Below, one piece after another: positions 31,901 through 45,600 of a stretch of 64,000 bases of DNA. The stretch is from positions 1-64,000 of the forward strand of contig CALWLW010000009.1 in the NCBI GenBank assembly GCA_944381625.1, given 5' to 3'. Each line of letters begins with the position of its first letter. Position 1 is the first letter of the stretch. The translations under genes were made by a program, and so were the position numbers. Source of the DNA: an uncultured Lachnoclostridium sp. Lineage in GTDB: Bacteria; Bacillota; Clostridia; Lachnospirales; Lachnospiraceae. The notes below the pieces were generated by a model, which saw only the letters and a program-made list of their open reading frames with translations, made no database searches and was not told the DNA's origin.

Positions 31901-34054
31901 ATGTCAGTGAAAATCGCACTTGCCGGCAATCCAAACTGCGGCAAAACCACATTATTTAATGCGTTGACCGGAGCCAATCAGTTCGTAGGAAACTGGCCGG
32001 GCGTTACGGTGGAGAAGAAGGAAGGAAAACTGAAAGGACACTCAGATGTGACGATCATGGACCTTCCCGGGATCTATTCCCTTTCCCCTTATACCCTGGA
32101 GGAAGTGGTGGCCAGGAACTATCTGATCGCGGACCGTCCGGACGCGATCCTGAACATTGTGGACGGCACCAACCTGGAGCGCAACCTTTATCTGACCACG
32201 CAGCTGATGGAACTGGGGATCCCGGTTGTCATGGCAGTCAACATGATGGACGTGGTGAAAAAAGAAGGGGATCAGATCCATATTGATAAGCTGAGCAGGG
32301 AACTGGGCTGCAAGGTGGTGGAGATCTCCGCTCTGAAGGGAACGGGAGTCAAGGAAGCCGCGGAGGCCGCGGTACAGGCCGCGTCTTCAGGAGCTGCCCA
32401 GACCATCGTACATACTTTTGATAAAAAGGTGGAAGACGCCCTGGACGCCATCGAAGGAATGCTGGGATCAGAAGTCTCCGAGGAGCAGAAGCGTTTCTTT
32501 GCCATCAAGCTTTTCGAGCGGGACGACAAGATCGGCGACCAGCTTCGGCAGGCGCCGAATGTGGAACAGATCATCGCGGATCTGGAAAAAGAGCTGGATG
32601 ATGACTCCGAGAGTATTATTACCAACGAGCGTTATAATTTTATTGCGTCCATCATTGGAAAGTGCTATAAAAAAGCGAGAAGGGGAGAACTGTCCACTTC
32701 GGATAAGATCGACCGCATCGTGACCAACCGGATTCTGGCGCTGCCCATCTTTGCAGTGATCATGTGGGTGGTGTATTATGTATCCGTAACCTCTGTGGGA
32801 ACCATTGTCACCGACTGGACCAACGACGTGCTGTTCGGAGAGATCATTCCTCCGGCCATTGAGAGCCTGCTGGTGAGCATGAACTGCGCGGACTGGCTCC
32901 AGGGCCTGATCCTGGACGGTATCGTGGGCGGCGTGGGAGCAGTCCTGGGCTTTGTGCCGCAGATGCTGGTGCTGTTCCTGTTCCTGGCATTCCTGGAAGG
33001 CTGCGGATATATGGCGCGTATCGCGTTCATCATGGACCGTATTTTCCGTAAATTCGGTCTGTCCGGCAAATCCTTCATTCCCATGCTGATCGGTTCCGGC
33101 TGCGGTGTACCGGGTGTGATGGCTTCCAGAACTATCGAGAACGACCGTGACCGCAAGATGACGATCATGACGACCACGTTTGTGCCCTGCGGAGCGAAGC
33201 TCCCGATCATCGCGCTGATTGCGGGCGCGCTGTTCGACGGAGCGTCCTGGGTAGCGCCCAGCGCGTATTTCGTGGGAATTGCGGCGATTATCTGCTCCGG
33301 TATTATTCTGAAGAAAACGAAGCTGTTTGCCGGAGATCCGGCTCCGTTCGTCATGGAGCTTCCGGCATATCACCTGCCTACGGTTGGCAGCGTACTGAGG
33401 AGTATGTGGGAGAGAGGCTGGTCCTTCATTAAGAAGGCCGGCACAATCATCCTTCTGTCCACCATCGTACTGTGGTTCCTGCAGGGTTATGGCTGGGGAC
33501 CGGACGGTTTCGGAGCTGTGGAACTGGAAGACAGCATCCTGGCGTCCATCGGAAACGCCGTTGCATGGATCTTTACTCCGCTGGGATGGACCCAGGGCGG
33601 CGAAGGCTGGAAGATGGCTGTGGCAGCCGTAACCGGTCTGATCGCGAAAGAGAACGTGGTAGCTACGTTCGGTGTGCTGTTCGGTTTTGCTGAGGTAGCG
33701 GAAGACGGCGCTGAGATCTGGGGCAGCCTGGCGGCCTGCATGACGACTGTGGCGGCATACAGCTTCCTGGTATTCAACCTGCTGTGCGCGCCGTGCTTCG
33801 CGGCCATGGGCGCGATCAAGAGAGAGATGAACAATACCAAATGGTTCCTGATCGCCATCGGCTATCAGTGCGGCCTGGCATATCTGGTCTCTCTGTGTAT
33901 CTACCAGATCGGAACCTGGATCACCACCGGAACATTCGGCATCGGCGTGATCGTAGCGCTGGCTGTAATCGCGGCATTTATCTGGCTGCTGGTGCGTCCG
34001 TATAAACAGGACGGCAAATTGAAAGTGAATCTGAAAGGAATGGCGAAGGCTTAA
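31901..34054 (+). CDS. feoB: Ferrous iron transporter B
   Basis: 717-residue inner-membrane Fe(II) importer. The cytosolic G domain has ALAGNPNCGKTTLFNALTG (P-loop, residues 7-25), the switch segment NWPGVTVEKKEG, DLPGIYSLSPYT, and VMAVNMMD (G4). The GDI helical domain follows, then a membrane part with two Gate regions, the first containing GSGCGVPGVMASRTIE and FVPCGAKLPIIAL. GAGGAGGAGAAG precedes the ATG. Confidence 0.97.
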   Translation: MSVKIALAGNPNCGKTTLFNALTGANQFVGNWPGVTVEKKEGKLKGHSDVTIMDLPGIYSLSPYTLEEVVARNYLIADRPDAILNIVDGTNLERNLYLTTQLMELGIPVVMAVNMMDVVKKEGDQIHIDKLSRELGCKVVEISALKGTGVKEAAEAAVQAASSGAAQTIVHTFDKKVEDALDAIEGMLGSEVSEEQKRFFAIKLFERDDKIGDQLRQAPNVEQIIADLEKELDDDSESIITNERYNFIASIIGKCYKKARRGELSTSDKIDRIVTNRILALPIFAVIMWVVYYVSVTSVGTIVTDWTNDVLFGEIIPPAIESLLVSMNCADWLQGLILDGIVGGVGAVLGFVPQMLVLFLFLAFLEGCGYMARIAFIMDRIFRKFGLSGKSFIPMLIGSGCGVPGVMASRTIENDRDRKMTIMTTTFVPCGAKLPIIALIAGALFDGASWVAPSAYFVGIAAIICSGIILKKTKLFAGDPAPFVMELPAYHLPTVGSVLRSMWERGWSFIKKAGTIILLSTIVLWFLQGYGWGPDGFGAVELEDSILASIGNAVAWIFTPLGWTQGGEGWKMAVAAVTGLIAKENVVATFGVLFGFAEVAEDGAEIWGSLAACMTTVAAYSFLVFNLLCAPCFAAMGAIKREMNNTKWFLIAIGYQCGLAYLVSLCIYQIGTWITTGTFGIGVIVALAVIAAFIWLLVRPYKQDGKLKVNLKGMAKA

Positions 34055-34191
34055 TGGGAACCTTGATCGTTGGAATCGTTGTTTTGGCAATTGTGGCTGC
34101 TGCGGTCCGCAGTATCTGGAAAGATAAAAAGTCCGGAAACCCCTGCGCAGGGTGCAGCGGAGGGTGTTCAGGATGCAGGACGAAAGAGTAG
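34054..34191 (+). CDS. FeoB-associated Cys-rich membrane protein
   Basis: 45 residues: one N-terminal transmembrane helix (LIVGIVVLAIVAAAV), a basic stretch, then a cysteine cluster CAGCSGGCSGC. It belongs to the small family that follows feoB in Firmicutes. Its ATG overlaps the feoB stop by one base (TAATG), so the two are translationally coupled. It may play the part of FeoC or bind iron at the cytosolic face. Confidence 0.88.
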   Translation: MGTLIVGIVVLAIVAAAVRSIWKDKKSGNPCAGCSGGCSGCRTKE

Positions 34192-34595
34192 CAGGCAGAG
34201 AGCAGGAGAAAAAACAGATTCTGGACCTGTTTCGTGAAAAAGGAATGCGGGTTACCAGGCAGCGGGAGCTGATTCTCGATATTGTACTGGAGAATGAGTG
34301 CAGCTGCTGCAAGGAGATCTATTACCGGGCGGCGAAGAAGGATAAAAATATCGGGATTGCCACCGTCTACCGCATGGTAAATGCGCTCAGTGAACTGGGG
34401 CTTTTCCGGCAGAATCTGCCTTACTGCCTGACGGGCAGGGATTCCTGCGAATCAGGAAACGGCTGTAAGATATTCCTGAAAGACCAGAACGTGGTGGAAT
34501 TGAACTTTGAAGAGTGGCGGAAGGTGCTGCTTCGGGCGCTGGAGGAAAAGGGATATTCCGATCATGTGGAGATCGATCACATCATATTGAAATAA
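34173..34595 (+). CDS. Fur family transcriptional regulator
   Basis: 140 residues from the ATG at 34173, which has GGAGGG 8 bp upstream and overlaps the Cys-rich gene in another frame. The winged helix (FREKGMRVTRQRELILDIVL, IGIATVYRMVNALSELGLF) is typical Fur/PerR. The C-terminal part is short and lacks the usual His-rich metal site and paired CxxC motifs; CSCC in the helix and single cysteines around CLTGRDSCESGNGC remain. It likely controls the feo operon. Confidence 0.82.
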   Translation: MQDERVAGREQEKKQILDLFREKGMRVTRQRELILDIVLENECSCCKEIYYRAAKKDKNIGIATVYRMVNALSELGLFRQNLPYCLTGRDSCESGNGCKIFLKDQNVVELNFEEWRKVLLRALEEKGYSDHVEIDHIILK

Positions 34596-34721: not shown

Positions 34722-36065
34722 GTGAAGGAAGGAGTCCGGCTGACGGAAGGCCCCATTGGGAAGCAGCTTTTCTGGTTCGCGCTGCCCTTATTTGGAGGCA
34801 GCCTGATCCAGCAGCTCTATAATACGGTGGATCTGATCTTTGTGGGACAGCTTTTGGGATCGGAGGCGTCGGCAGCTGTGGGATCCGGCGGGCTTCTGGT
34901 GACGTTTATCCTTGGCCTGTTTACCGGCCTTGGCGTGGGCGTGGGAATCGCGGCCGGTCGGGCGTACGGCGGGGAGGAAGAGGAGGAACTGCACCGGATT
35001 GTACATACGGCAGAAGGCATTACGGTTCTGGGCGGCGTGGTATTTACCATTGTGGGCTGGATTTTGACACCCTGGTTTCTCCGTATGCTGAATACGCCGG
35101 AAGACATCCTGGAGATGTCCATAGTTTATCTGAGGATCTATTTCCTGAGCCTTCTGTTTATTATTGCATATAACATCAATTCGGGCATTTTAAGGGCGCT
35201 GGGCGATTCCAGGAGGCCCATGCTGTATCAGCTTGCGGGAGGGATTGCCAACGTCTTCGGCGACTGGTTCTTCCTGTATGTGCTGAAGATGGGCGTGGAA
35301 GGCGCGGCGCTGGCAACCATGCTGTCCCAGGCAATAGCCGCCATTGTGACCACCGCCCATCTGTGCAGGATGAAAGGGGCGGGACGTCTGATGCTTTCCA
35401 GAATCCGCATCTATCCCAGGACCTGCAGGCAGATCCTGGCGGTGGGCATCCCTTCCGCAGTGCAGTCCATGGTGATGACCTTTTCCAACCTGATCGTCCA
35501 GTCCCGGATCAATATCCTGGGTGTGGAGAGCATTGCGGCGTTTACGGTCTATTTTAAGGTGGAAAATCTGGTCTATCTTCCAATTCTGTCCTTCGGGCAG
35601 GCCAACGCGTCCTTTGCCAGCCAGAATATGGGTGCCGGACTCCTTGGACGGGTGAAAAAAGGGACCTGGGTCTCCATCGCCATGGGGATCGCGGTTACGG
35701 TGGCAATCAGCGCGTCGGTACTGCTGAACGCGGAATTCGTGTTCGGATGGTTCAGCACAGAAGAGGCGGTGATCCATCTGGGAGCGCAGATTGTGGCGGT
35801 CACGTTCCCGTTTTATTTCCTGTACGTGTTTCTGGAGGTCTTTGCCGGCACGATCCGCGGGGCGGGGCACGCCCTGGAGACCATGCTGATCGTGGTATTC
35901 AATCTGGTTGTAGTCAGACTGGGCGTGCTGGAAGCAGTCATGCGGATCTGGAGGAGCGTTCAGGGTGTGGCGCTGATCTATCCGGTCACATGGGCGGCCA
36001 CATCGCTGTGCCTGTTTCTTTACTATAAAAAAGGCAGATGGTGTTCCCGCCAAAAAAACGTATAA
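34722..36065 (+). CDS. MATE family efflux transporter
   Basis: 447 residues and about twelve transmembrane helices. The N-terminal GPIGKQLFWFALPLFGGSLIQQLYNTVDLIFVG is typical of the DinF/NorM group. Exports drugs or metabolites by cation antiport; the substrate is unknown. GTG start at 34722 with AGGAGGG upstream. Ends with a basic tail. The gene stands alone. Confidence 0.9.
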   Translation: MKEGVRLTEGPIGKQLFWFALPLFGGSLIQQLYNTVDLIFVGQLLGSEASAAVGSGGLLVTFILGLFTGLGVGVGIAAGRAYGGEEEEELHRIVHTAEGITVLGGVVFTIVGWILTPWFLRMLNTPEDILEMSIVYLRIYFLSLLFIIAYNINSGILRALGDSRRPMLYQLAGGIANVFGDWFFLYVLKMGVEGAALATMLSQAIAAIVTTAHLCRMKGAGRLMLSRIRIYPRTCRQILAVGIPSAVQSMVMTFSNLIVQSRINILGVESIAAFTVYFKVENLVYLPILSFGQANASFASQNMGAGLLGRVKKGTWVSIAMGIAVTVAISASVLLNAEFVFGWFSTEEAVIHLGAQIVAVTFPFYFLYVFLEVFAGTIRGAGHALETMLIVVFNLVVVRLGVLEAVMRIWRSVQGVALIYPVTWAATSLCLFLYYKKGRWCSRQKNV

Positions 36066-36146
36066 CCCCCTTCCCTGTACAAAGGTATGCAAGGACCTCT
36101 CCATGTGGAGGTATGCCAAATTGGAAGTGGAAAACTTTCTGGAAGA

Positions 36147-36375
36147 AACGTATACTGGAAATGTGTTTATAAAAGGAAATACTGTATTTCATGGAGGATG
36201 GTTCCGCCGCAGGCGGATGAAAAGGGAAACCGGTGAAAGTCCGGTACGATCCCGTCACTGTGATAGGGAGCCGGCGGCAGAAAGGCCACTGGGGCAGAAA
36301 GGCTCCGGGAAGGCGCCGCAGGCTGTGAGTTTAAGTCAGGAGACCTGCCAGACTTCCGGTGAGAAAACTCATACG
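36147..36375 (+). promoter_or_regulatory. Cobalamin (B12) riboswitch
   Basis: The B12 box AAGTCAGGAGACCTGCC is at 36333-36349. Upstream, AAAAGGGAA, then CCGGTGAAAGTCCGG, GATCCCGTCACTGTGATAGGGAG and GGCCACTGGGGC follow in the order of the adenosylcobalamin class I aptamer, and GCCGCAGGCTGTGAG precedes the box. The core spans about 36199-36349; outer P1 strands are approximate. A terminator at 36539-36565 and then an ABC importer operon follow, so cobalamin binding should lower expression of that operon. Confidence 0.93.
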
Positions 36376-36538
36376 GTGTATATGAGGACCGCATACGAAA
36401 GATACTGGTATTCTGATGAACGGAACGCAGTTCTGCCCTGCCGTGGGAGACAGATGTTTCCATGCCTGCATCGCTGCCGGTTTCATGCCCTGCATGTTTA
36501 TAAGGGGGCATTGGCCTTTTATATGTTGTTGACATTGG

Positions 36539-36565
36539 AGCCTGTGAGTCACAGGCTTATTTTTA
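36539..36565 (+). terminator. Terminator of the riboswitch leader
   Basis: AGCCTGTG-AGT-CACAGGCT followed by TATTTTTAT, 57 bp before the first gene of the operon. This is the probable expression platform of the B12 riboswitch or the end of the attenuated leader. Confidence 0.8.
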
Positions 36566-36621
36566 TGCAGATCTTTTTATAGGTGCAGAAAATTTATAAT
36601 ATGCAAAGGAAGGGATTGACT

Positions 36622-38241
36622 ATGAAAAAGACATGGAAGAGAACGCTGTCTGTGGGTATCACGGCAGCATTGGCGGCAGGTATGCTGGCAGGCTGCGGCG
36701 GTTCCGCGGATACGGCAGGCTCCGCGGGTACCTCGGGTACGCAGAGCGGTGCAGGCGCAGACGGGGAGAAGGTGCTGACCTTCGGATGCCAGAACTACGG
36801 CGACGGACTGGTGGACCCCACGAACCAGACGAACGCGGCCTGGAACCTCATGCGTTACGGCGTGGGCGAGGCGCTGTTCAAATTCAACGACAATATGGAA
36901 GTAGAGCCTTGGCTGGCAGAATCCTATGAGGTGACCGACGATCACCTGACCTGGACCATCAAGCTGAGGGATGATGTGAAATTTTCCGATGGCTGTGAGA
37001 TGACGGCCACGAAGGTAAAGGAATCCCTGGACCGTCTGAAAGTGGAAGGCCCCAAAGGCTCTTCGGGCCCGGAGAAATTCCTGGAATATGAAGCGGAGAT
37101 CACCGCGGACGACGCGGCCAACACCATTACCATCCAGACTGTGACCGCGTACCCGAACCTGCCGGGCAACCTGGCTTATCCGGTTATGGCGATTGTGGAC
37201 GTGGCGGATACCACCGACTGGAACAACGGCGTCATCGGTACCGGTCCCTATGTGATCGAGACTTTCACGGACCAGGTGGGGTATACGCTTGTGGCTAATG
37301 AAAATTATCGGGAAGAGGTTCCCTACGACCGGGTGGAGCTGCTGTACATGAGCGACGCCAGCGCGAAGGCCATGGCGCTTAAGAACGGCCAGGTGGACCT
37401 GGTGGAGAACATCACCAATGTAAGCGACATTCAGGAACTGCAGAACGATGAGAACTTCACCGTGGATATCGCCAGCGGCGTGCGCTGCGGCTTCTCATGG
37501 ATCAACTTTAACGGCGTGCTTGGCAACGATGCCCTGCGCCAGGCAGTGATCATGGGCATCGACGATGAAGCCATCTGTGCTTCCAACCTGATCGGCGGCC
37601 TGTATACGCCGGGATATTCCGTGCTGCCCTCCAACCTGGAGTACGGCTATGATACGCTGGAGAATCCGTTCGCCTTTGATGTGGAAGCGGCCACGAAGCT
37701 GCTGGACGACGCCGGCATCGTGGATACCGACGGCAACGGCATCCGGGAACTGGACGGACAGGACATCGTTCTGGATTATGTATATTATGACAACCGCCTG
37801 CTGAAAGAGTTCGCTCAGGCTCATCATCAGTATCTGACCGCCATCGGCATCGAAGTCAATGAGCGGGAGGGAAGCTCCGACGACCAGTGGAGCAGCCTGG
37901 TGGCCGGCGACTACGACTTTAACGCGAATAACTGGACGACCGTAGGAAACGGCGATCCTACCGAGTATATGGCCAACTGGTGCAGCACCTCTTCCGCAAA
38001 CTATTGCGGTTATGTGAACGAAGAGTATGATAAGCTTTACGCGCAGCTGGTGACGGAGACAGATCCAGATACCCGTACGGAGATCATCACCCGCCTGCAG
38101 CAGATCCTCATCGACGACGCGGCAGTACTGGTGGACGGCTACTACAACAGCTCCATGATCTATTCCAGGAACGTGGGCTACGCGCATATCCATACGGCAG
38201 ACTATTACTGGCTGAGCACGGAGATTGTCCCGGCCGAGTAA
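36622..38241 (+). CDS. ABC importer receptor lipoprotein, NikA/OppA type (SBP_bac_5)
   Basis: 539 residues. Lipoprotein signal with cleavage at MLAGC, cysteine 25, then a Gly/Ser/Ala linker. The mature protein has the family-5 fold (YGVGEALFKFNDNMEVEPWLAESYEV; LTWTIKLRDDVKFSDG; GTGPYVIETF). This family binds peptides, nickel or metal-opine complexes. It is the first gene behind a B12 riboswitch. The ATG at 36622 follows GGAAGGG. The substrate cannot be read from the sequence. Confidence 0.92.
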   Translation: MKKTWKRTLSVGITAALAAGMLAGCGGSADTAGSAGTSGTQSGAGADGEKVLTFGCQNYGDGLVDPTNQTNAAWNLMRYGVGEALFKFNDNMEVEPWLAESYEVTDDHLTWTIKLRDDVKFSDGCEMTATKVKESLDRLKVEGPKGSSGPEKFLEYEAEITADDAANTITIQTVTAYPNLPGNLAYPVMAIVDVADTTDWNNGVIGTGPYVIETFTDQVGYTLVANENYREEVPYDRVELLYMSDASAKAMALKNGQVDLVENITNVSDIQELQNDENFTVDIASGVRCGFSWINFNGVLGNDALRQAVIMGIDDEAICASNLIGGLYTPGYSVLPSNLEYGYDTLENPFAFDVEAATKLLDDAGIVDTDGNGIRELDGQDIVLDYVYYDNRLLKEFAQAHHQYLTAIGIEVNEREGSSDDQWSSLVAGDYDFNANNWTTVGNGDPTEYMANWCSTSSANYCGYVNEEYDKLYAQLVTETDPDTRTEIITRLQQILIDDAAVLVDGYYNSSMIYSRNVGYAHIHTADYYWLSTEIVPAE

Positions 38242-38266
38242 GCTGGCAGGTAAGGGGAGTGATAGT

Positions 38267-39205
38267 GTGACAAAGAAACAACTTATTTCCAGGCTGCTGC
38301 AGATTGTAGTGGTATTGATCGGGATCAGCTTTCTGACCTTTCTGCTGACCTATTTATCGCCGGGCGATCCGGTGCGGACCATGCTGAGCGCCACCGGTGT
38401 GATGCCCAGTGAAGAGCTGGTACAGTCCATCCGCGACCAGATGGGGCTGAACGATCCGTTCTTCACCCAGTACTTCCGGTGGCTGGGGAACTGCCTGCAC
38501 GGGGATTTCGGAAATTCCTATTCCTTCAGCAAACCTGTGGTGACGCTTCTGGCGGCCCGGCTGTGGCCCACCCTGAAGCTGACCATCTTCTCCATGGTTC
38601 TGATGCTGCTTGTATCCGTGCCTCTTGGCATGTGTTCGGCAGTGTATAAGAACTCCTGGGTGGACAACCTGGTGAGGGGCGTTACGTTCCTGGGCATCTC
38701 CATGCCGAACTTCTGGGTGGGACTTTTGCTGATGCTGGTGTTCTGTGTACAGGTCAACTGGCTTCCGGTTATCTGCTCCGGAGGGGATTTTAAGAGTATG
38801 ATCCTGCCCTCCGTGACGCTGGCCATCGCCATGTCGTCCAAGTATACGAGGCAGGTACGTACGGCGGTGCTGGAGGAACTGAGCCAGGATTACGTGACAG
38901 GCGCCAGGGCGAGAGGCGTGCCGGAGTGGAAGATTCTCTGGCTGAATGTATTTCCCAACTCCCTCCTGCCCCTGATCACCATGCTGGGCCTTTCCGCAGG
39001 CTCCCTGCTGGGCGGTACTTCCGTGGTGGAAGTGATCTTTTCCTATCCCGGCCTGGGAAACCTGGCGGTGTCGGCGATCACTTCCTGCGATTATAACCTG
39101 ATTCAGGGATATGTACTGTGGATCGCGCTGATTTACATGGCGATCAACCTGATTGTGGATATATCTTATAATTTCGTGGATCCGCGGATGAGAGTGAAGA
39201 GGTGA
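38267..39205 (+). CDS. ABC importer permease, DppB/NikB type
   Basis: 312 residues and six helices. The N-terminal ISFLTFLLTYLSPGDPVRTML and the EAA-type coupling loop (DYVTGARARGVPEWKILWLNVF) are typical. GTG start at 38267, with AAGGGGAGTG upstream. Stop 5 bp before the next permease. Second subunit of the B12-regulated importer. Confidence 0.92.
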   Translation: MTKKQLISRLLQIVVVLIGISFLTFLLTYLSPGDPVRTMLSATGVMPSEELVQSIRDQMGLNDPFFTQYFRWLGNCLHGDFGNSYSFSKPVVTLLAARLWPTLKLTIFSMVLMLLVSVPLGMCSAVYKNSWVDNLVRGVTFLGISMPNFWVGLLLMLVFCVQVNWLPVICSGGDFKSMILPSVTLAIAMSSKYTRQVRTAVLEELSQDYVTGARARGVPEWKILWLNVFPNSLLPLITMLGLSAGSLLGGTSVVEVIFSYPGLGNLAVSAITSCDYNLIQGYVLWIALIYMAINLIVDISYNFVDPRMRVKR

Positions 39206-39210
39206 GACAG

Positions 39211-40131
39211 ATGAAAAAGGAAAATTTCTTTATTAAAAGTCTCATATCCCGCAAAAATCGGGATATGAGACCCTCGCGGCAGTCGCCAAATGGACATGCA
39301 AGCATGTCCGCTTGGCTCGTTGCCCGCGGGAATAAGACCTTCACGATCTTTGGGATCCTTGCGATTCTGATTGTTCTGACGGCTGTCTTCGCCCCGGTAA
39401 TTACCGGGGGAGTCAGCCCCACAGAAGGGGAACTGATGAACGCGATTCAGCCGCCGGGACCGGGACACATTTTTGGAACGGATAAACTGGGCAGGGATAT
39501 CTTTACCCGTGTTATTTATGGAGCCAGAATTTCACTGACGGCCGCCTTTGCGGTGGTGATCCTGATCTTTGTAATCGGTACGTTTCTGGGGATCCTAGCC
39601 GGATATTTCGGCGGCGTCGTGGATACGGTGATCATGCGTATCGCAGATATGCTGATCTCTTTCCCGGGCCTGGTACTGGCCCTGGCTGTGGCAGGTATCA
39701 TGGGAGCCAGCATCCGCAACGCGGTCATTGCCATCGCTGTGGTGAGCTGGACAAAATACGCCCGTCTGGCCCGAAGCCTGGTGCTGAAGATCCGCCACCG
39801 GGATTTTGTGGCGGCGGCCATCGTAAGCGGCTCCAAAACACCCTATATACTGTTCCGCTACATGCTGCCTAATGCCCTGCCCACGCTGGTGATCACGGCG
39901 GCGACGGATATCGGAAGCATGATGCTGGAGCTGGCGTCCCTGTCTTTCCTGGGCTTCGGCGCCAAAGCGCCGGCCGCGGAGTGGGGCCTGATGCTGAATG
40001 AAGGGCGGGCTTATATGCAGGCCGCTCCCTGGCTGATGGTATTCCCCGGCCTGGCAATTTTCATCACGGTGGTGGTCTTCAATATGCTGGGCGACAGTCT
40101 CCGGGATATTCTGGATCCGAGAGACGAGTAG
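39211..40131 (+). CDS. ABC importer permease, DppC/NikC type, with an in-frame repeat in its N-tail
   Basis: 306 residues. The membrane part is ordinary DppC (FGTDKLGRDIFTRVIYGARIS; EAA loop RDFVAAAIVSGSKTPYILFRYML). The cytosolic N-tail is unusually long. Residues about 10-45 (LISRKNRDMRPSRQSPNGHA and on) are encoded by perfect DNA hairpins at 39239-39271 and 39292-39309, so the tail appears to contain an inserted palindromic element kept in frame. ATG at 39211 after AGAGGTGAG. Confidence 0.9.
   Translation: MKKENFFIKSLISRKNRDMRPSRQSPNGHASMSAWLVARGNKTFTIFGILAILIVLTAVFAPVITGGVSPTEGELMNAIQPPGPGHIFGTDKLGRDIFTRVIYGARISLTAAFAVVILIFVIGTFLGILAGYFGGVVDTVIMRIADMLISFPGLVLALAVAGIMGASIRNAVIAIAVVSWTKYARLARSLVLKIRHRDFVAAAIVSGSKTPYILFRYMLPNALPTLVITAATDIGSMMLELASLSFLGFGAKAPAAEWGLMLNEGRAYMQAAPWLMVFPGLAIFITVVVFNMLGDSLRDILDPRDE
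39239..39330. repeat. Palindromic element inserted inside a permease gene
   Basis: GTCTCATATCCCG and CGGGATATGAGAC pair perfectly over 13 bp around CAAAAAT (39239-39271). GGACATGC-AA-GCATGTCC is a second perfect hairpin (39292-39309) with CCAA/TTGG flanks. The length keeps the permease frame open. It is similar in idea to Rickettsia palindromic elements. Confidence 0.6.
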
Positions 40132-40146
40132 GAGGTGCGTGAAGAG

Positions 40147-40935
40147 ATGGCAATGCTTGAATTAAAAGATGTTACAATTTCTTATAAAAACGTACCTGCC
40201 GTACAGAATGTGAACCTGAGCCTGGAGGAAGGAGAGATATGCAGTATCGTGGGAGAGAGCGGAAGCGGCAAGACCACGGTGATCCGCGCAGTCCTAGGTC
40301 TTCTGGCGGGCGGCGGAAAAGTGACGAAAGGCGATATCCTTTTTGACGGGGAGACGCTCCTCACCAGGTCGGGAGAGGAATGGCGGAAGCTGAGAGGTAC
40401 GAAGATCTCCATGATCTTCCAGGATTCCGGGGCCATGATGAACCCCACCAGGAAGATCGGAGACTGTTTCGTGGAATATATCAGAACCCACGAAAATATC
40501 AGTAAAAAAGACGCCTGGGAAAAAGGCGTCAAAATGCTGGAGAACATGCGTCTTCCCAACGGAGACAATGTGATGCGGAGTTATCCGTTCCAGCTGTCCG
40601 GCGGTATGCGCCAGAGGGTGGGTATCGCCATGGGCATGACCTATCAGCCGAAGCTTCTGCTGGCGGACGAGCCCACCAGCGCCCTGGATGTGACGACTCA
40701 GGCTCAGATTATCCGTCAGTTCATGGAACTGCGGGAGGAGTATGGAACCAGTATCATTATGGTGACGCACAATCTGGGCGTGGCCGCGTATATGTCCGAC
40801 TATATAGTAGTCATGAAGGACGGTATCATAGAGGATGAAGGCACAAGGGACTATATTCTGAAAGGAACCAGGAAGGAGTATACGAAGACGCTTCTTGACG
40901 CGGTTCCATCCCTGGGAGGTGTGCGTTATGTTTGA
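40147..40935 (+). CDS. ABC importer ATPase, DppD/NikD type
   Basis: 262 residues. Walker A GESGSGKTT, signature LSGGMRQRV, Walker B LLLADEPTSALD, and H-loop VTHNLG are all intact. AGGAGGTG lies 8 bp before the ATG at 40147. It overlaps the partner ATPase gene by 8 bp. It ends without the C-terminal oligopeptide/dipeptide zinc-cluster domain that its partner has. Confidence 0.92.
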   Translation: MAMLELKDVTISYKNVPAVQNVNLSLEEGEICSIVGESGSGKTTVIRAVLGLLAGGGKVTKGDILFDGETLLTRSGEEWRKLRGTKISMIFQDSGAMMNPTRKIGDCFVEYIRTHENISKKDAWEKGVKMLENMRLPNGDNVMRSYPFQLSGGMRQRVGIAMGMTYQPKLLLADEPTSALDVTTQAQIIRQFMELREEYGTSIIMVTHNLGVAAYMSDYIVVMKDGIIEDEGTRDYILKGTRKEYTKTLLDAVPSLGGVRYV

Positions 40936-41887
40936 TGAAAAAGACGTGATCCTGGAGGCGAAACATATCACGCGGAAATTTCCGGCCTCCGGTGGACGCA
41001 CGCTGACTGCCTGCAGTGATGTGAGTTTGAAATTATATAAGGGCAAGACCCTGGGGCTGGTGGGAGAGTCCGGCTGTGGGAAGAGCACCTTTATGCGCTT
41101 CCTGGTATCTCTGGATACGCCCACGGAGGGAGAGATCTTCTTCCATGGGAAAAATATTACACAGCTGAAAGGCGAGGAACTGCGCCAGAACCGTCAGTAT
41201 ATCCAGATGGTGTTCCAGGATCCTTCGGCGTCTTTTAACCCGAAGATGAAGATCCGGGATATTATCTGCGAACCGCTGATGAATTTTAAGCGGATCAAAG
41301 CCAGTGAAAAAGACGCGGTGGCGCGTAAGTTCCTGGAGATGGTGGATCTGCCGGGCGAATTCGCAGACCGGTATCCCCACAATATGTCCGGCGGACAGCG
41401 GCAGCGTGTGGCCATCGCCCGTGCCATCGCGCTGGAGCCGGAGATCATCGTCATGGACGAGGCCACCTGCGCGCTGGACGTGTCGGTACAGAAGACGATC
41501 ATCGAGCTGGTGGTGGGCCTGCAGAAACAGAAAAATATTTCCATCGGGTTCATCGCCCATGACCTGGGACTGATCCAGTCCTTTGCCCATCAGATCGCGG
41601 TGATGTATCTGGGAACGATTGTGGAAGTGCTGCCCGGCGAGGAGATCAGCACCAGTGCCATGCATCCCTATACCCAGGCGCTGCTGGGCGCGGTGTTCGA
41701 TCTGAACATGGATTTCTCCAAAAAGATTGAGAGCATTGAGAGCGAAGCGCCCAGTCCGCTGGACGTACCGCCCGGCTGTCCGTTCCAGAACCGCTGCGAC
41801 CGGTGCATGGAAATCTGCAGGGAAAAACGGCCGGCGCTCATAGATGTGGCAAAAGGGCATCAGGTGGCCTGCCACTTGTATACCTAA
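40928..41887 (+). CDS. ABC importer ATPase, DppF/NikE type
   Basis: 319 residues. Walker A GESGCGKST, signature MSGGQRQRV, Walker B IIVMDEATCALD. The C-terminal PGCPFQNRCDRCMEICREKRPAL carries the cysteine pattern typical of peptide-transporter ATPases, which can hold an iron-sulfur cluster. The start at 40928 overlaps the stop of the first ATPase gene and follows GGGAGGTG. Confidence 0.92.
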   Translation: MFDEKDVILEAKHITRKFPASGGRTLTACSDVSLKLYKGKTLGLVGESGCGKSTFMRFLVSLDTPTEGEIFFHGKNITQLKGEELRQNRQYIQMVFQDPSASFNPKMKIRDIICEPLMNFKRIKASEKDAVARKFLEMVDLPGEFADRYPHNMSGGQRQRVAIARAIALEPEIIVMDEATCALDVSVQKTIIELVVGLQKQKNISIGFIAHDLGLIQSFAHQIAVMYLGTIVEVLPGEEISTSAMHPYTQALLGAVFDLNMDFSKKIESIESEAPSPLDVPPGCPFQNRCDRCMEICREKRPALIDVAKGHQVACHLYT

Positions 41888-41902
41888 AAGGAGAAGCATA
41901 AA

Positions 41903-42865
41903 GTGAAAACGAATTTAGTATTGGATCATCTTACGGCGAAGCCGGGAGAAAAAATTTCCGGATATATGAAAATCATCAACACGGAGCTGGAGATTCCGGT
42001 CACCCTGATCTGCGGCACCCAAGAGGGTCCTGCTGTTCTTGTGACGGGAGGCATCCACAACGCGGAATATGTGGGGATCCAGGCGGCCATGGAACTGTGC
42101 GCGGAATTGGACCCGTCGAAGCTGTGCGGGGATGTGATCATCTTTCCGCTGGTGAACCGTTCCGGTTTTGAACACCGGACCATGAGCATGGTCTATGAGG
42201 ACGGGAAGAATATCAACCGCGAATTTCCGGGGAATCCGGAAGGGACGACGACGGAGCGGATCTGCCATACCTTTGTGGAAAAGATCTTCCCCAGGGTGGA
42301 TTACTATATGGACCTGCACTGCGGCGACGGATATGAAGCGCTGTACCCTCATGTGTATACACTGGGAGCAGCCGCCCCCGACGTGAACCGCGCGTCCGAC
42401 GCCATGGCAAGGGCTGTGAACATGGATTTCCGGTATCCGTCCAAAAACGCCTCAGGAGGCGCCTACAACCATGCGGGAAGTATGGGTGTGCCGGGGATTC
42501 TTCTGGAGCGAGGATCAAGATCTCTGTGGAGCCGGGAAGAGGTGGAGGCGGACAAGGAAGACGTCCGCAACGTGCTTCGGTATCTGCATGTGCTGGAAGG
42601 CGAGGCAAAAGTATACGACGGCGTCCAGAGGGAGCTGCGGGACGGGTATTTTCTGGAAGCGGATGATACCGGCCTGTGGTATCCATGTTATCAGGTGGGC
42701 GACCGTTTTGAAAAGGGCGCTCTTCTTGGAACCATAAAAGATTATATGGGCAATGTGGTGAAAGAATACTATGCCCAGGTGAGCGGGATACTGCTCATAC
42801 AGACGATCAGCCTGAACGTCCTGAAGGGCGGTGCAATGCTCTCTTATTGTGAATTAAAAGATTAG
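41903..42865 (+). CDS. AstE/AspA family zinc hydrolase (succinylglutamate desuccinylase/aspartoacylase type)
   Basis: 320 residues, M14-like fold. The zinc ligands are H52 and E55 in GGIHNAEY and H139 in DLHCGDG; NREFPG (105-110) is the family substrate motif, and the C-terminus has the beta-rich cap (GDRFEKGALLGTIKDYMGN). Family members remove acyl groups from amino acids. The GTG start at 41903 follows AAAAGGAGAAG. It lies 16 bp after the ATPase gene, so its substrate is probably what the transporter brings in. The predicted protein has no signal peptide and is cytoplasmic. Confidence 0.88.
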   Translation: MKTNLVLDHLTAKPGEKISGYMKIINTELEIPVTLICGTQEGPAVLVTGGIHNAEYVGIQAAMELCAELDPSKLCGDVIIFPLVNRSGFEHRTMSMVYEDGKNINREFPGNPEGTTTERICHTFVEKIFPRVDYYMDLHCGDGYEALYPHVYTLGAAAPDVNRASDAMARAVNMDFRYPSKNASGGAYNHAGSMGVPGILLERGSRSLWSREEVEADKEDVRNVLRYLHVLEGEAKVYDGVQRELRDGYFLEADDTGLWYPCYQVGDRFEKGALLGTIKDYMGNVVKEYYAQVSGILLIQTISLNVLKGGAMLSYCELKD

Positions 42866-42888
42866 AGGGGTCGAAAGGAAGGATGAGG

Positions 42889-44091
42889 ATGAGACATATA
42901 TGGGTATGGCTCTCTGCTCTTCTGGTCTCCGCGGCCCTGACGGGCTGCGGAGGCGTCTCCCAAAAAGAGACCGAAGCAGCGCAGGAAGACCAGACACATA
43001 AAATCGGCGTGCTGGTATACAATCTGGCGGACGGGGAAGTGATGTCGTTCCGCAGTTATCTGGAAAATTATATCATGGAGTGTTTCCCTGATGTGGAGTT
43101 CTACTATTCAGACAGTGTTTCAGACGAGGAAGGGATTCAAGAATTCCTGGCTCTGGCTCGTGAGAACGGGGTAGAAGGGATCATGTCTTTCCTGTCCTAT
43201 GATCTGGAGGAAGAAGTCGCCGCGTGTGAAGAATATGAGATGTACTATCTCATGGCGTCGGGAACGGTGGCGGAGGACGCGTTCCATGCCGTGGAGGACA
43301 GCCCCCGTTTTCTGGGTGTGGTAGGCCCCGGTACGGATGTGGAATACCAGGCGGGAAAAGAGATGGCAGAATACTTCATGGAAGAAACAGCCGGAGATTC
43401 CTATCTGATTTACAGCGGCGGAGCGGCGCAGGGCAATGAGATGCACCGGATCCGTACACAGGCGATTCTGGAGACGCTGGAAGAGGGGTACGGCGTGACC
43501 TTTGATACGCCGGCCGAAGAACTGGCATTGACGGAGGAACCTGTAAAATTGCAGTCAGGCAGCCTGGAAGTAGGCATTTATCCGGGATTTGTCCGTCTGG
43601 ACGGAGTGCGCGAGGGCGCGGCGAAGGAGCTGGACAGCGGCGCTTACGACAGCGCCATGGCAGTGCTCCCGGTAGGCCCTCTGGTGGAGGAAGCAAGGGG
43701 TTCCAACATCCCGCTGGGAACCGTGGATGCGTATACAGAAGGGAACCAGACCCTGTTCAACAGCGGTGACCTGAACTATGTAACCGGAAAATACAGTTCG
43801 ATCATCGGGCCGTCCTTTGCGGTCATGTATAATGCGGTCAAAGGCTATGCGGAGGATTTCCGTCAGGATGGGAAAGCGTTTCAGATCCAGCAGGGCTTCT
43901 GGAGCTCTTCCAGCGCCGAGGACTATGGAGAAAAGTACAGCCTGGCCTCGGCGATTTATGTAAATGCCTATAATTTTGAGGATCTGCAGCATGTGTGCAG
44001 GGATTATAACCCGGACGCCACGCTGGACGACCTGATTGCACTGGTTTCGGCGTATACATATGAGGACGCCCTTGCCAGAAGAGGAGAGTAG
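42889..44091 (+). CDS. Periplasmic-binding-protein-like lipoprotein, type 1 fold
   Basis: 400 residues. Lipoprotein signal (WLSALLVSAALTGC, cysteine 20). HKIGVLVYNLADGEVMSFRSYLENY is the first strand-helix of a LacI/ribose-binding type fold; an acidic, Ser/Tyr-rich body follows. The substrate is unknown. It has no permease of its own here and may act as a second receptor for the importer or as a sensor. ATG at 42889 preferred over 42883 because of spacing to GAAAGGAAGG. The stop is followed immediately by the P-ATPase remnant, in the same frame. Confidence 0.78.
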   Translation: MRHIWVWLSALLVSAALTGCGGVSQKETEAAQEDQTHKIGVLVYNLADGEVMSFRSYLENYIMECFPDVEFYYSDSVSDEEGIQEFLALARENGVEGIMSFLSYDLEEEVAACEEYEMYYLMASGTVAEDAFHAVEDSPRFLGVVGPGTDVEYQAGKEMAEYFMEETAGDSYLIYSGGAAQGNEMHRIRTQAILETLEEGYGVTFDTPAEELALTEEPVKLQSGSLEVGIYPGFVRLDGVREGAAKELDSGAYDSAMAVLPVGPLVEEARGSNIPLGTVDAYTEGNQTLFNSGDLNYVTGKYSSIIGPSFAVMYNAVKGYAEDFRQDGKAFQIQQGFWSSSSAEDYGEKYSLASAIYVNAYNFEDLQHVCRDYNPDATLDDLIALVSAYTYEDALARRGE

Positions 44092-44094
44092 GGC

Positions 44095-45600
44095 GAAGGG
44101 AAAAAGGCTCTGATCTCCATTTTCGTAGGAGCGGCTCTTTTCATTGTAGGAGAAGTGATGGAGCACATGGGCGCTCCGCTTCCGGCTCTGCTGGTGATCC
44201 TGACCGTAGCATACCTGATCCTGGGCGGAAAGGTGCTGCTGGCGGCAGCGAAGAATATTTCCAAAGGCCAGGTATTTGATGAAAACTTCCTGATGAGTAT
44301 TGCGACGCTGGGAGCGTTCGCCATCCAGGAATACCCCGAAGCGGTGGGCGTTATGCTGTTCTACCGGATGCGTCAATACCTCCGGCCAGCTGACGATCCG
44401 TGCGGAAAAGGTACTGGAAGAGTCCATGGTTACCCGAATCCTGGATTCCGTGGAAAATGCGGCGGCCAACAAGCCGGCGATTGATAAATTCATCACCCGT
44501 TTCGCAAGAGTCTACACGCCGGCCGTGGTTGTGGCGGCGATTGTGGTCGCGGTTGTCCTTCCGTTCATCCTGCCCAACTGGCATTTCTTCGTATCGGAGG
44601 GCTATACGGGTGCGGAGACCGTGCTTCATGGAGCGACGGGAACCGCATCTGTACTGACGGCGCTGACTTTCCTGGTTATCAGCTGCCCGTGTGCGCTGGT
44701 ACTCAGCGTGCCGCTGGCGTTCTTCTCGGGCATCGGAGCCGCTTCCAAGAAGAATATTCTCTTCAAGGGCGGCAACGTGATCGAGATGCTGTCCGGCATC
44801 AAAGCTGTGAACTGTCCTCCACCCATCCCATCGGCGTCAGCGTGGTGGCGGCAGAAGAGAAAGGTCTGGATGTGGAGCGTCCGTCCAGGGTGGAAGAGAT
44901 CGCCGGACATGGTATCCGTGCGACGGTATCCGCCGGAACGGTTCTGTGCGGCAACCGGAAGCTGATGGATGCCAGCCAGATCGACATGAGCGGATATAAG
45001 AACGATACCTTCGGCACCGAGGTGCTGGTGGCACTGAACGGCAAATTTGCCGGTCATGTGGTGATCTCCGATACCATCAAGGAAGACGCGGCTCCGTCTA
45101 TTGCCAGGACGAAGAAGCTGGGTATTGTGACCGCGATGCTTACAGGCGACGCGGAAGAGAGCGCCAGGAACGTGGCGGCCCAGACCGGGATCGACGAAGT
45201 CCACGCGAAACTGCTTCCCCAGGATAAGCTGTCCGAGCTGCAGAAGATCCGCCAGGCTCACGGAAGCGTAATGTTCGTGGGCGATGGTATCAACGACGCG
45301 CCGGTTCTGGCCGGAGCGGATGTGGGCGCGGCCATGGGAAGCGGAGCGGACGCGGCCATCGAGGCGGCCGACGTGGTATTTATGACGTCGGAGATGTCCG
45401 CGATCCCCCAGGCCATCGACATCGCCAGAGCGACGAAGCGGATCTCCTGGCAGAATGTGTACTTTGCCCTGATCATCAAATTCGTGGTCATGATCGTGGG
45501 TCTGTTCGGCTTTGCCAACATGTGGGTGGCGGTGTTCGCGGATACAGGAGTATCCCTGCTCTGCCTGCTGAACTCTGTGCGGATTTTGAGAAGGAAATAA
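44095..45600 (+). pseudogene. Decayed Zn/Cd-type P-ATPase (ZntA/CadA-like)
   Basis: Three pieces in different frames make one damaged exporter. Piece 1 (44095-44370, KKALISIFVGAALFIVGE...EYPEAVGVMLFYR) is the first helices, with no start and no metal-binding domain. Piece 2 (44377-44815, SGQLTIRAEKVLEESMVTRI...ISCPCALVLSVPLAFFSGIG...GGNVIEML) has the CPC motif. Piece 3 (44815-45600, STHPIGVSVVAAEE...MLTGDAEES...VGDGINDAPVL) is the end of the catalytic domain. Two deletions removed the actuator domain and the DKTGT phosphorylation site, so it cannot pump. The remaining codons are little changed, so the damage looks recent. Confidence 0.92.

Follow-up and report, generated by a model that had tools for sequence, protein, structure and literature searches.

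The 64,000-nt stretch of DNA from an uncultured Lachnoclostridium sp. analysed here (the window) contains, at positions 36147-44091, a NikABCDE-type operon that is headed by a vitamin B12 (cobalamin) riboswitch and also encodes an AstE/AspA-type zinc hydrolase (AstE) and a second binding lipoprotein (LP7). This is a real, conserved B12-riboswitch metal-importer operon, whose aptamer, terminator-like hairpin and gene order, with their conservation across Clostridia, were established computationally. The importer probably carries cobalt; with somewhat less assurance, our best reading of the whole is an adenosylcobalamin-repressed importer of chelated cobalt together with its accessories.

Riboswitch and gene order

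The elements of the operon are as follows, with scores in bits where given:

36182..36366 (+), cobalamin riboswitch aptamer, RF00174, 116.6 bits, E 1.5e-28 (gathering score 31.5)
36538..36558 (+), predicted terminator-like hairpin followed by a T-run, the likely expression platform
36622..38241 (+), NikA-type family-5 solute-binding lipoprotein, SBP_bac_5 239.9 bits
38225..39205 (+), NikB-type permease, true start probably about 38267, NCBIfam Opp2B 399.7 (cut-off 350)
39202..40131 (+), NikC-type permease, NCBIfam Opp2C 321.8 (cut-off 300)
40135..40935 (+), NikD-type ATPase, ABC_tran
40895..41887 (+), NikE-type ATPase, ATG start about 40928, ABC_tran and oligo_HPY
41903..42865 (+), AstE/AspA-type zinc hydrolase, AstE_AspA_cat PF24827 87.1 against 25 bits, H52/E55/H139
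42883..44091 (+), LP7, type-1-fold binding lipoprotein by AlphaFold model and fold matches; the operon holds no permease for it

A preliminary description of this DNA had recognized a cobalamin aptamer with a downstream terminator and had staked its proposal on the aptamer matching RF00174; the window aptamer covers that model end to end (1-189) at 116.6 against 31.5 bits, and the hairpin with its T-run lies downstream. Four terminator-like sites occur on the two strands of 36000-36640, against 0.5 expected, and the leaders of related loci contain a terminator-like hairpin in 59 of 64 cases, compared with 47/192 after shuffling and 20/62 in genic control stretches. For hairpins at -12 kcal/mol or below, the corresponding counts are 47/64, 12/192 and 10/62. 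Aptamer and likely platform together support the B12 control proposed earlier.

Seven co-directional genes stand behind the riboswitch, with overlaps or intergenic distances of at most about 25 bp (the NikB start being estimated), in keeping with the previously noted gaps of under 30 bp. Pfam matches over cut-off, including BPD_transp_1 in both permeases, bear out the described content of an SBP_bac_5 receptor, two permeases, two ATPases and a hydrolase, and the residues H52, E55 and H139 were found where they had been placed. Lipoboxes (LAGC and LTGC) were read from the translations of the two lipoproteins, and the predicted structure of LP7 resembles type-1 sugar-binding proteins, as its earlier label of a type-1 binding lipoprotein would suggest.

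Conservation of the riboswitch-NikA arrangement

For comparison we used the best 80 of 213 stretches encoding a NikA relative, collected with a NikA-alignment search that was blind to riboswitches; by title these loci (L numbers below) are mostly from Lachnospiraceae and other Clostridia, many of them from gut or rumen, with two Coriobacteria-type records. Species among them are Blautia schinkii (L088), Oliverpabstia intestinalis (L089) and Hominisplanchenecus faecis (L099). Riboswitches were called from gene maps and a covariance model built from five aptamers, two of which, from L021 and L023, recur as identical DNA in L099 and L128, so that the latter two loci match by construction. A riboswitch lies 5′ of NikA in the same gene chain at 66 of the 80 loci, 62 of them found by script and four by eye (L079, L107, L113 and L116), where the riboswitch precedes another gene that leads into the operon. 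At two loci, a LysR-type regulator gene headed by a B12 riboswitch runs into the Nik operon (L107 8625-9859; L116 5925-7157). Rechecking 17 loci against Rfam, mainly the low scorers, confirmed 16, all among the 66, and L098 was the one that failed. The remaining 14 loci comprise seven that start at a contig end and seven with upstream sequence. The earlier proposal had been exposed to contradiction by homologous operons without a riboswitch, and with 66 of 80 carrying one it survived this check.

Control loci gave a different result within the stretches read, with a riboswitch at none of 18 loci selected by AstE (L046-L063) and none of 10 selected by distant LP7 relatives (L024-L033). In a sample of 200 genomes of the family (G numbers below), which includes the window's own genome and two of whose loci (G058 and G136) are duplicated in the locus set as L074 and L126, a riboswitch precedes NikA in six of the eight carriers (the window, L021, L023, L148, L150 and L151).

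Receptor and permease class

Both window permeases exceed the NCBIfam nickel-permease cut-offs (Opp2B 399.7/350; Opp2C 321.8/300), and by this measure the importer, previously described as NikA/Opp-type, belongs to the nickel class. The predicted structure of NikA (predicted local distance difference test, pLDDT, 89) points the same way: nickel receptors (from S. aureus, Brucella, B. halodurans and E. coli) make up most of its best fold matches by E-value. One alignment of NikA sequences comprised the window and 42 of the 80 loci.

Corrinoid synthesis and cobalt routes in carriers

Most tested genomes with the importer make corrinoids themselves. Every one of the eight NikA carriers in the family sample has the synthesis gene cobI over cut-off, compared with 90 of the 200 genomes overall (Fisher p 0.0014, uncorrected for kinship), as do 46 of the 50 GTDB genomes, out of those of the 80 loci, in which cobI and the cobalt importer component CbiM were tested. 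CbiM is over cut-off in six of the eight family-sample carriers against 67 of 200 overall, and in 22 of the 50 GTDB carrier genomes. It is absent at this cut-off from 27 of the 46 cobI-positive carriers, many of whose genomes are incomplete and in which other cobalt importers were not searched for; the operon may thus be the cobalt route of many gut B12 producers. Four of the 50 genomes have no cobI over cut-off (L067, L072, L112 and L087); that of L067 has cbiD, that of L112 holds a cut-off cobI fragment and that of L072 shows weaker methyltransferase matches.

Because almost every tested carrier synthesises corrinoids de novo, the cobalt half of the reading is favoured. The cargo had been proposed as a cobalt complex or a corrinoid fragment, and the corrinoid-producing carriers favour the former and disfavour the latter.

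The window genome contains three B12 riboswitches: that of the operon, a second ahead of cobI and other corrin genes, and a third with no gene seen behind it. This last one is strong (97.2 bits; L004 12751-12941 (-), C15:58750-58940), has no open reading frame of 100 aa or longer behind it on its strand and faces, across a terminator-like stretch, a convergent gene for a response regulator that by eye resembles kdpE; it may be an orphan or the source of a noncoding or antisense RNA. On the same contig, the start of a 1308-aa open frame (L004 2-3925 (-), C15) resembles a Cas9-type protein by eye. Near CbiM, a single frame (L145 4629-6290 (-), C21) joins a CbiO-type ATPase (TIGR01166 235.8/211.8) to a CbiK-like cobaltochelatase part that scores 278 bits, below the cut-off of 400.

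Accessory genes

Across the 80 chains we counted LP7 at 44 loci, AstE at 28, a MATE exporter at 28 and a P1B metal ATPase at 11, all of which are lower bounds because incomplete contigs were included. A riboswitch is present at 39 of the LP7 loci (37 by script, two by eye) and 20 of the AstE loci (18 by script, two by eye).

LP7 represents a family of B12-linked binding lipoproteins that neither Pfam nor NCBIfam names: it passes no cut-off in either collection (Peripla_BP_4 reaches 14.7/35.1), and an assignment as a DUF3798-type protein was dropped when no such Pfam match was obtained. Its AlphaFold (AF2) model, with a mean pLDDT of 91, is nearest in fold to galactose-binding proteins (template modelling, TM, score about 0.7 on the target, probability 1.00), and its matches also include ribose-binding proteins. 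In the family sample LP7 occurs at above 40% identity in four of 200 genomes, all of them among the eight NikA carriers and none among the other 192 (Fisher p 1e-6, uncorrected for kinship); the copy of G136 lies on a different contig from NikA and has no riboswitch. At the Blautia loci L088 and L091, which count as one case because they are 96-98% identical, LP7 has a riboswitch of its own ahead of that of NikABCDE. We aligned 39 of 45 LP7 sequences, including the window's (L095, L097, L113, L137, L138 and L141 were left out), and in the resulting tree the NikA-linked rows are separated from seven sugar-ABC (ATP-binding cassette) relatives by a long supported branch, with the placement of the G136 copy and of L110 not settled. 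Several of the non-B12 relatives adjoin an RbsA-like ATPase and permeases (by eye). The binding cleft seems to be kept, since M187, H188, R191, D282 and Q337 are common to both groups. Compared with AstE, LP7 is the more system-specific novelty.

AstE-type enzymes act on N-acyl amino acids, and the nearest solved relatives of the window protein are AstE/AspA-annotated structures and DoeB. DoeB is also the sole NCBIfam model matched, at 106.2/402.7 and so below its equivalog cut-off. No signal peptide was seen by eye, and the zinc triad is intact wherever an AstE row spans it, apart from a single frameshifted fragment. The hydrolase extends beyond the B12 operons: of the 50 AstE places listed, the 18 best that are not in the window genome include 13 with adjoining Nik-like genes (by eye), and none of the 18 has a riboswitch in the stretch read. 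We therefore dropped AstE as the defining partner, as it is common beside riboswitch-free Nik-like operons and absent from most B12 chains; with at least 28 of 80 chains containing it, it is not obligatory. A tree made without the L093 fragments places the AstE of B12 operons in several clades among the AstE of other Nik-like operons, and a single origin of the B12-linked AstE was likewise discarded because the starred branches force five changes. We claim no more than several clades, since the L106 row is outside the chain and L062 and L074 are the same locus.

Free methyltransferases adjoin AstE in L047 and L048, and LysR regulators do so in L051 and L053. At L048 (1565-17962), AstE, two methyltransferases and NikABCDE lie inside a corrin gene cluster, preceded by cobI and a tetrapyrrole methylase-HemD fusion and followed directly by a HemC-CbiK cobalt chelatase fusion, with a riboswitch about 2.3 kb before the stretch; this placement fits cobalt, and it raised our confidence in a hydrolase step slightly. 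AstE, we infer, deals with the organic cargo taken in by a larger class of uncharacterised Nik-like importers; some of these, at least, would be tied to cobalt, and the B12-riboswitch set would be one branch of the class. Separately, AstE is fused to class I S-adenosylmethionine-dependent methyltransferase domains beside Nik-like genes at L049 (8901-11423) and L050 (9080-10798), neither of which has a riboswitch in its stretch.

The genes bordering the window operon add two further accessories, on which the preliminary description was silent, and its leader has a candidate promoter:

34722..36065 (+), MATE exporter directly 5′ of the riboswitch, Pfam MatE
36128..36156 (+), possible promoter TGGAAA-17-TATACT, a weak match by consensus alone
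44101..45597 (+), decayed P1B metal ATPase behind LP7, three pieces in two frames, found by tblastn with the L074 ATPase

The promoter candidate is not above chance, with one site against 0.7 expected. Measured against the L074 ATPase, the decayed gene changes frame and has lost the parts that would align with residues 105-190 and 334-368; in several relatives the ATPase at the corresponding position is still an open frame. Two P1B ATPases that were tested pass heavy-metal and cadmium-family models, and a neighbour family found at 10 of the 80 loci has a tested member that passes an ArsR-type metalloregulator model. When unassigned neighbours were clustered, only the ArsR-type and LysR-type clusters occurred at four or more of the 80 loci. 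The window MATE clusters (100/100) with the operon MATEs of L106 and L109, and the idea of a single dedicated family of operon MATEs was abandoned, the tree requiring 11 label changes, near the shuffled mean of 13.4 (two of its rows labelled 'far' duplicate operon genes). Further 5′ of the MATE gene, at 31901-34595, the window encodes an FeoB iron importer and a Fur-family regulator.

Could these genes be unrelated passengers of a plain cobalt or nickel NikABCDE importer? Every accessory is missing from many loci, AstE falls in several clades and the MATE labels are scattered over their tree, all of which such an explanation would accommodate. It is nonetheless unlikely, as LP7 tracks NikA across genomes (four of eight carriers, none of 192 others) and in one case (L088/L091) comes with a separate B12 riboswitch, and the recurrence of AstE from several clades beside Nik-type importers looks like a shared function.

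Proposed mechanism and its alternatives

In the mechanism that we propose, low B12 would leave the terminator unformed and NikABCDE would be made. Chelates are the form in which NikA and CntA receptors carry nickel or cobalt; NikA of the window operon may likewise capture Co(II) chelated by a small organic molecule, for import by NikBCDE. A cytosolic AstE-type zinc hydrolase could then cut an amide of the chelator and free cobalt for the corrin ring, a step that we put forward tentatively and rate at somewhat less than an even chance. LP7 might be anchored at the surface and capture or deliver the chelate or its ligand, which we regard as doubtful. In relatives, the MATE exporter would expel the ligand or what is left of it, and a co-imported zinc-like metal would be removed by the P1B ATPase together with its ArsR sensor. 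Hydrolase, LP7, MATE and ATPase would all, on this account, be cargo-handling accessories.

Several observations weigh against the importer of chelated cobalt. No accepted riboswitch was found at L066, L074, L076, L098, L110, L114 and L117 despite upstream sequence (L098 has a weak trace of 17.3 bits that Rfam does not accept), and the family-sample carriers G026 (L149) and G058 (L062) have none before NikA. The genomes of L072 and L112 have neither cobI over cut-off nor cbiD, their titles marking them as metagenome-assembled and perhaps incomplete, and L087 (Pseudoflavonifractor sp. MSJ-30), with riboswitch, NikABCDE and MATE, has no cobI or cbiD match at all and is a real exception. The window genome also has CbiM and CbiO (TIGR00123 277.8/184.15; TIGR01166 235.8/211.8), on a contig with no RF00174 match, so the operon need not be its sole cobalt route. 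NikA scores below the nickel equivalog cut-offs (Opp5A_nikA 196.2/600; TIGR02294 143.7/393) and that of CntA (95.3/800), and TM-scores fail to separate nickel from peptide receptors (e.g. C. difficile AppA 0.85, CtaP 0.83). Accessories are absent from many loci, with AstE in 28 and LP7 in 44 of the 80 chains; the non-B12 relatives of LP7 lie in sugar-type ABC sets and share its pocket-like residues, which lends cobalt no support; and no chelator biosynthesis gene recurs among the clustered unassigned neighbours, in which cntKLM models were not searched.

Two other cargoes deserve comparison. Import of corrinoids or corrin fragments, which the hydrolase and LP7 would process or capture, is quite unlikely: L087 has the operon but neither cobI nor cbiD, the receptor matches include chains titled heme-binding protein A (one, 3m8u, is titled glutathione-binding in another listing), and corrinoid uptake too is placed under B12 riboswitches, as for the BtuCDF-like operon of C. 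difficile in the available text of PMC11477304, yet almost every tested carrier makes corrinoids de novo (46/50 and 8/8), the permeases are of the nickel class and corrinoid import would not need the recurring metal exporter and metal-sensor genes. Very unlikely is a B12 bypass, in which peptides or N-acyl amino acids (e.g. methionine sources) would be imported and hydrolysed by AstE, sparing the B12-dependent methionine synthase: known AstE-type activity on N-acyl amino acids, DoeB as the only NCBIfam match, a receptor family that often binds peptides and whose TM-scores do not discriminate, and L087 without cobI and cbiD would suit it, but nickel-class permeases, P1B ATPase and ArsR-type neighbours, mostly corrinoid-producing carriers, chains that mostly lack AstE and the sister set of L048 inside a corrin-cobalt chelatase cluster do not. 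Taken together, the sequence-based evidence favours chelated cobalt over corrinoids or peptides.

In its fullest form, this would be a cobalt-chelate ('cobaltophore') import-and-cleave system, widespread in gut Clostridia and turned on by B12 starvation, in which NikA and a sugar-fold lipoprotein would be paired with the importer and a chelator-destroying zinc amidohydrolase, and in many species with a ligand exporter and a pump and sensor for wrongly imported zinc. We consider this complete picture speculative and rather unlikely as a whole.

Comparison with known systems

The core of the operon is known in kind, since NikABCDE behind a B12 riboswitch has already been predicted: in the accessible text of PMC2667541, NikABCDE of C. 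tetani and D. hafniense have a predicted upstream B12 riboswitch and cobalt as the predicted substrate, and two Co-type NikABCDE are counted in Clostridia. These systems resemble the window operon in riboswitch, NikABCDE and predicted cobalt, and differ in that the same text mentions no hydrolase, binding lipoprotein, MATE or ATPase with them. NikABCDE of E. coli and S. aureus share the family-5 receptor, two permeases and two ATPases and are among the best receptor fold matches, whereas the window receptor fails the NikA equivalogs and its operon has B12 riboswitch control. The staphylopine system Cnt likewise combines a family-5 receptor with metal chelates, including cobalt, and its structure 5yhe is among the fold matches; the window operon differs in failing the CntA cut-off, in having a hydrolase and in showing no recurrent chelator biosynthesis genes (cntKLM not searched). 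DoeB, AstE and AspA amidohydrolases have the PF24827 domain and zinc triad in common with the window AstE, which falls short of the DoeB equivalog cut-off.

Among the three cobalamin riboswitches of C. difficile, according to the available part of PMC11477304, one each precedes cob/cbi genes, cbiMNQO and the BtuCDF-like operon. The portion of PMC8123684 at hand contains nothing on a B12-riboswitch importer with the accessory set, and open-licence PubMed Central articles, judged by title and start of abstract (subscription papers and preprints not covered), yielded no B12-controlled importer with this hydrolase or lipoprotein. As far as searched, the accessory set is new.

A related system with experimental support is CbtJKL of Sinorhizobium meliloti, an ABC cobalt importer with an adenosylcobalamin riboswitch and knock-out support (PMC7689651, in the text available). 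Like the window operon it is a canonical ABC importer under a B12 riboswitch; unlike it, the receptor is BtuF-like and not of family 5, and that text mentions no hydrolase or second receptor. The earlier statement that no such system had been characterised holds, in the literature searched, for the whole set, but the NikABCDE core was predicted in PMC2667541 and CbtJKL is characterised. The operon bears on the form in which gut bacteria acquire cobalt and on whether cobalt chelators exist, and a true import-and-cleave system would, as far as searched, be the first analogue of siderophore import, with release by hydrolysis, that is dedicated to cobalt.

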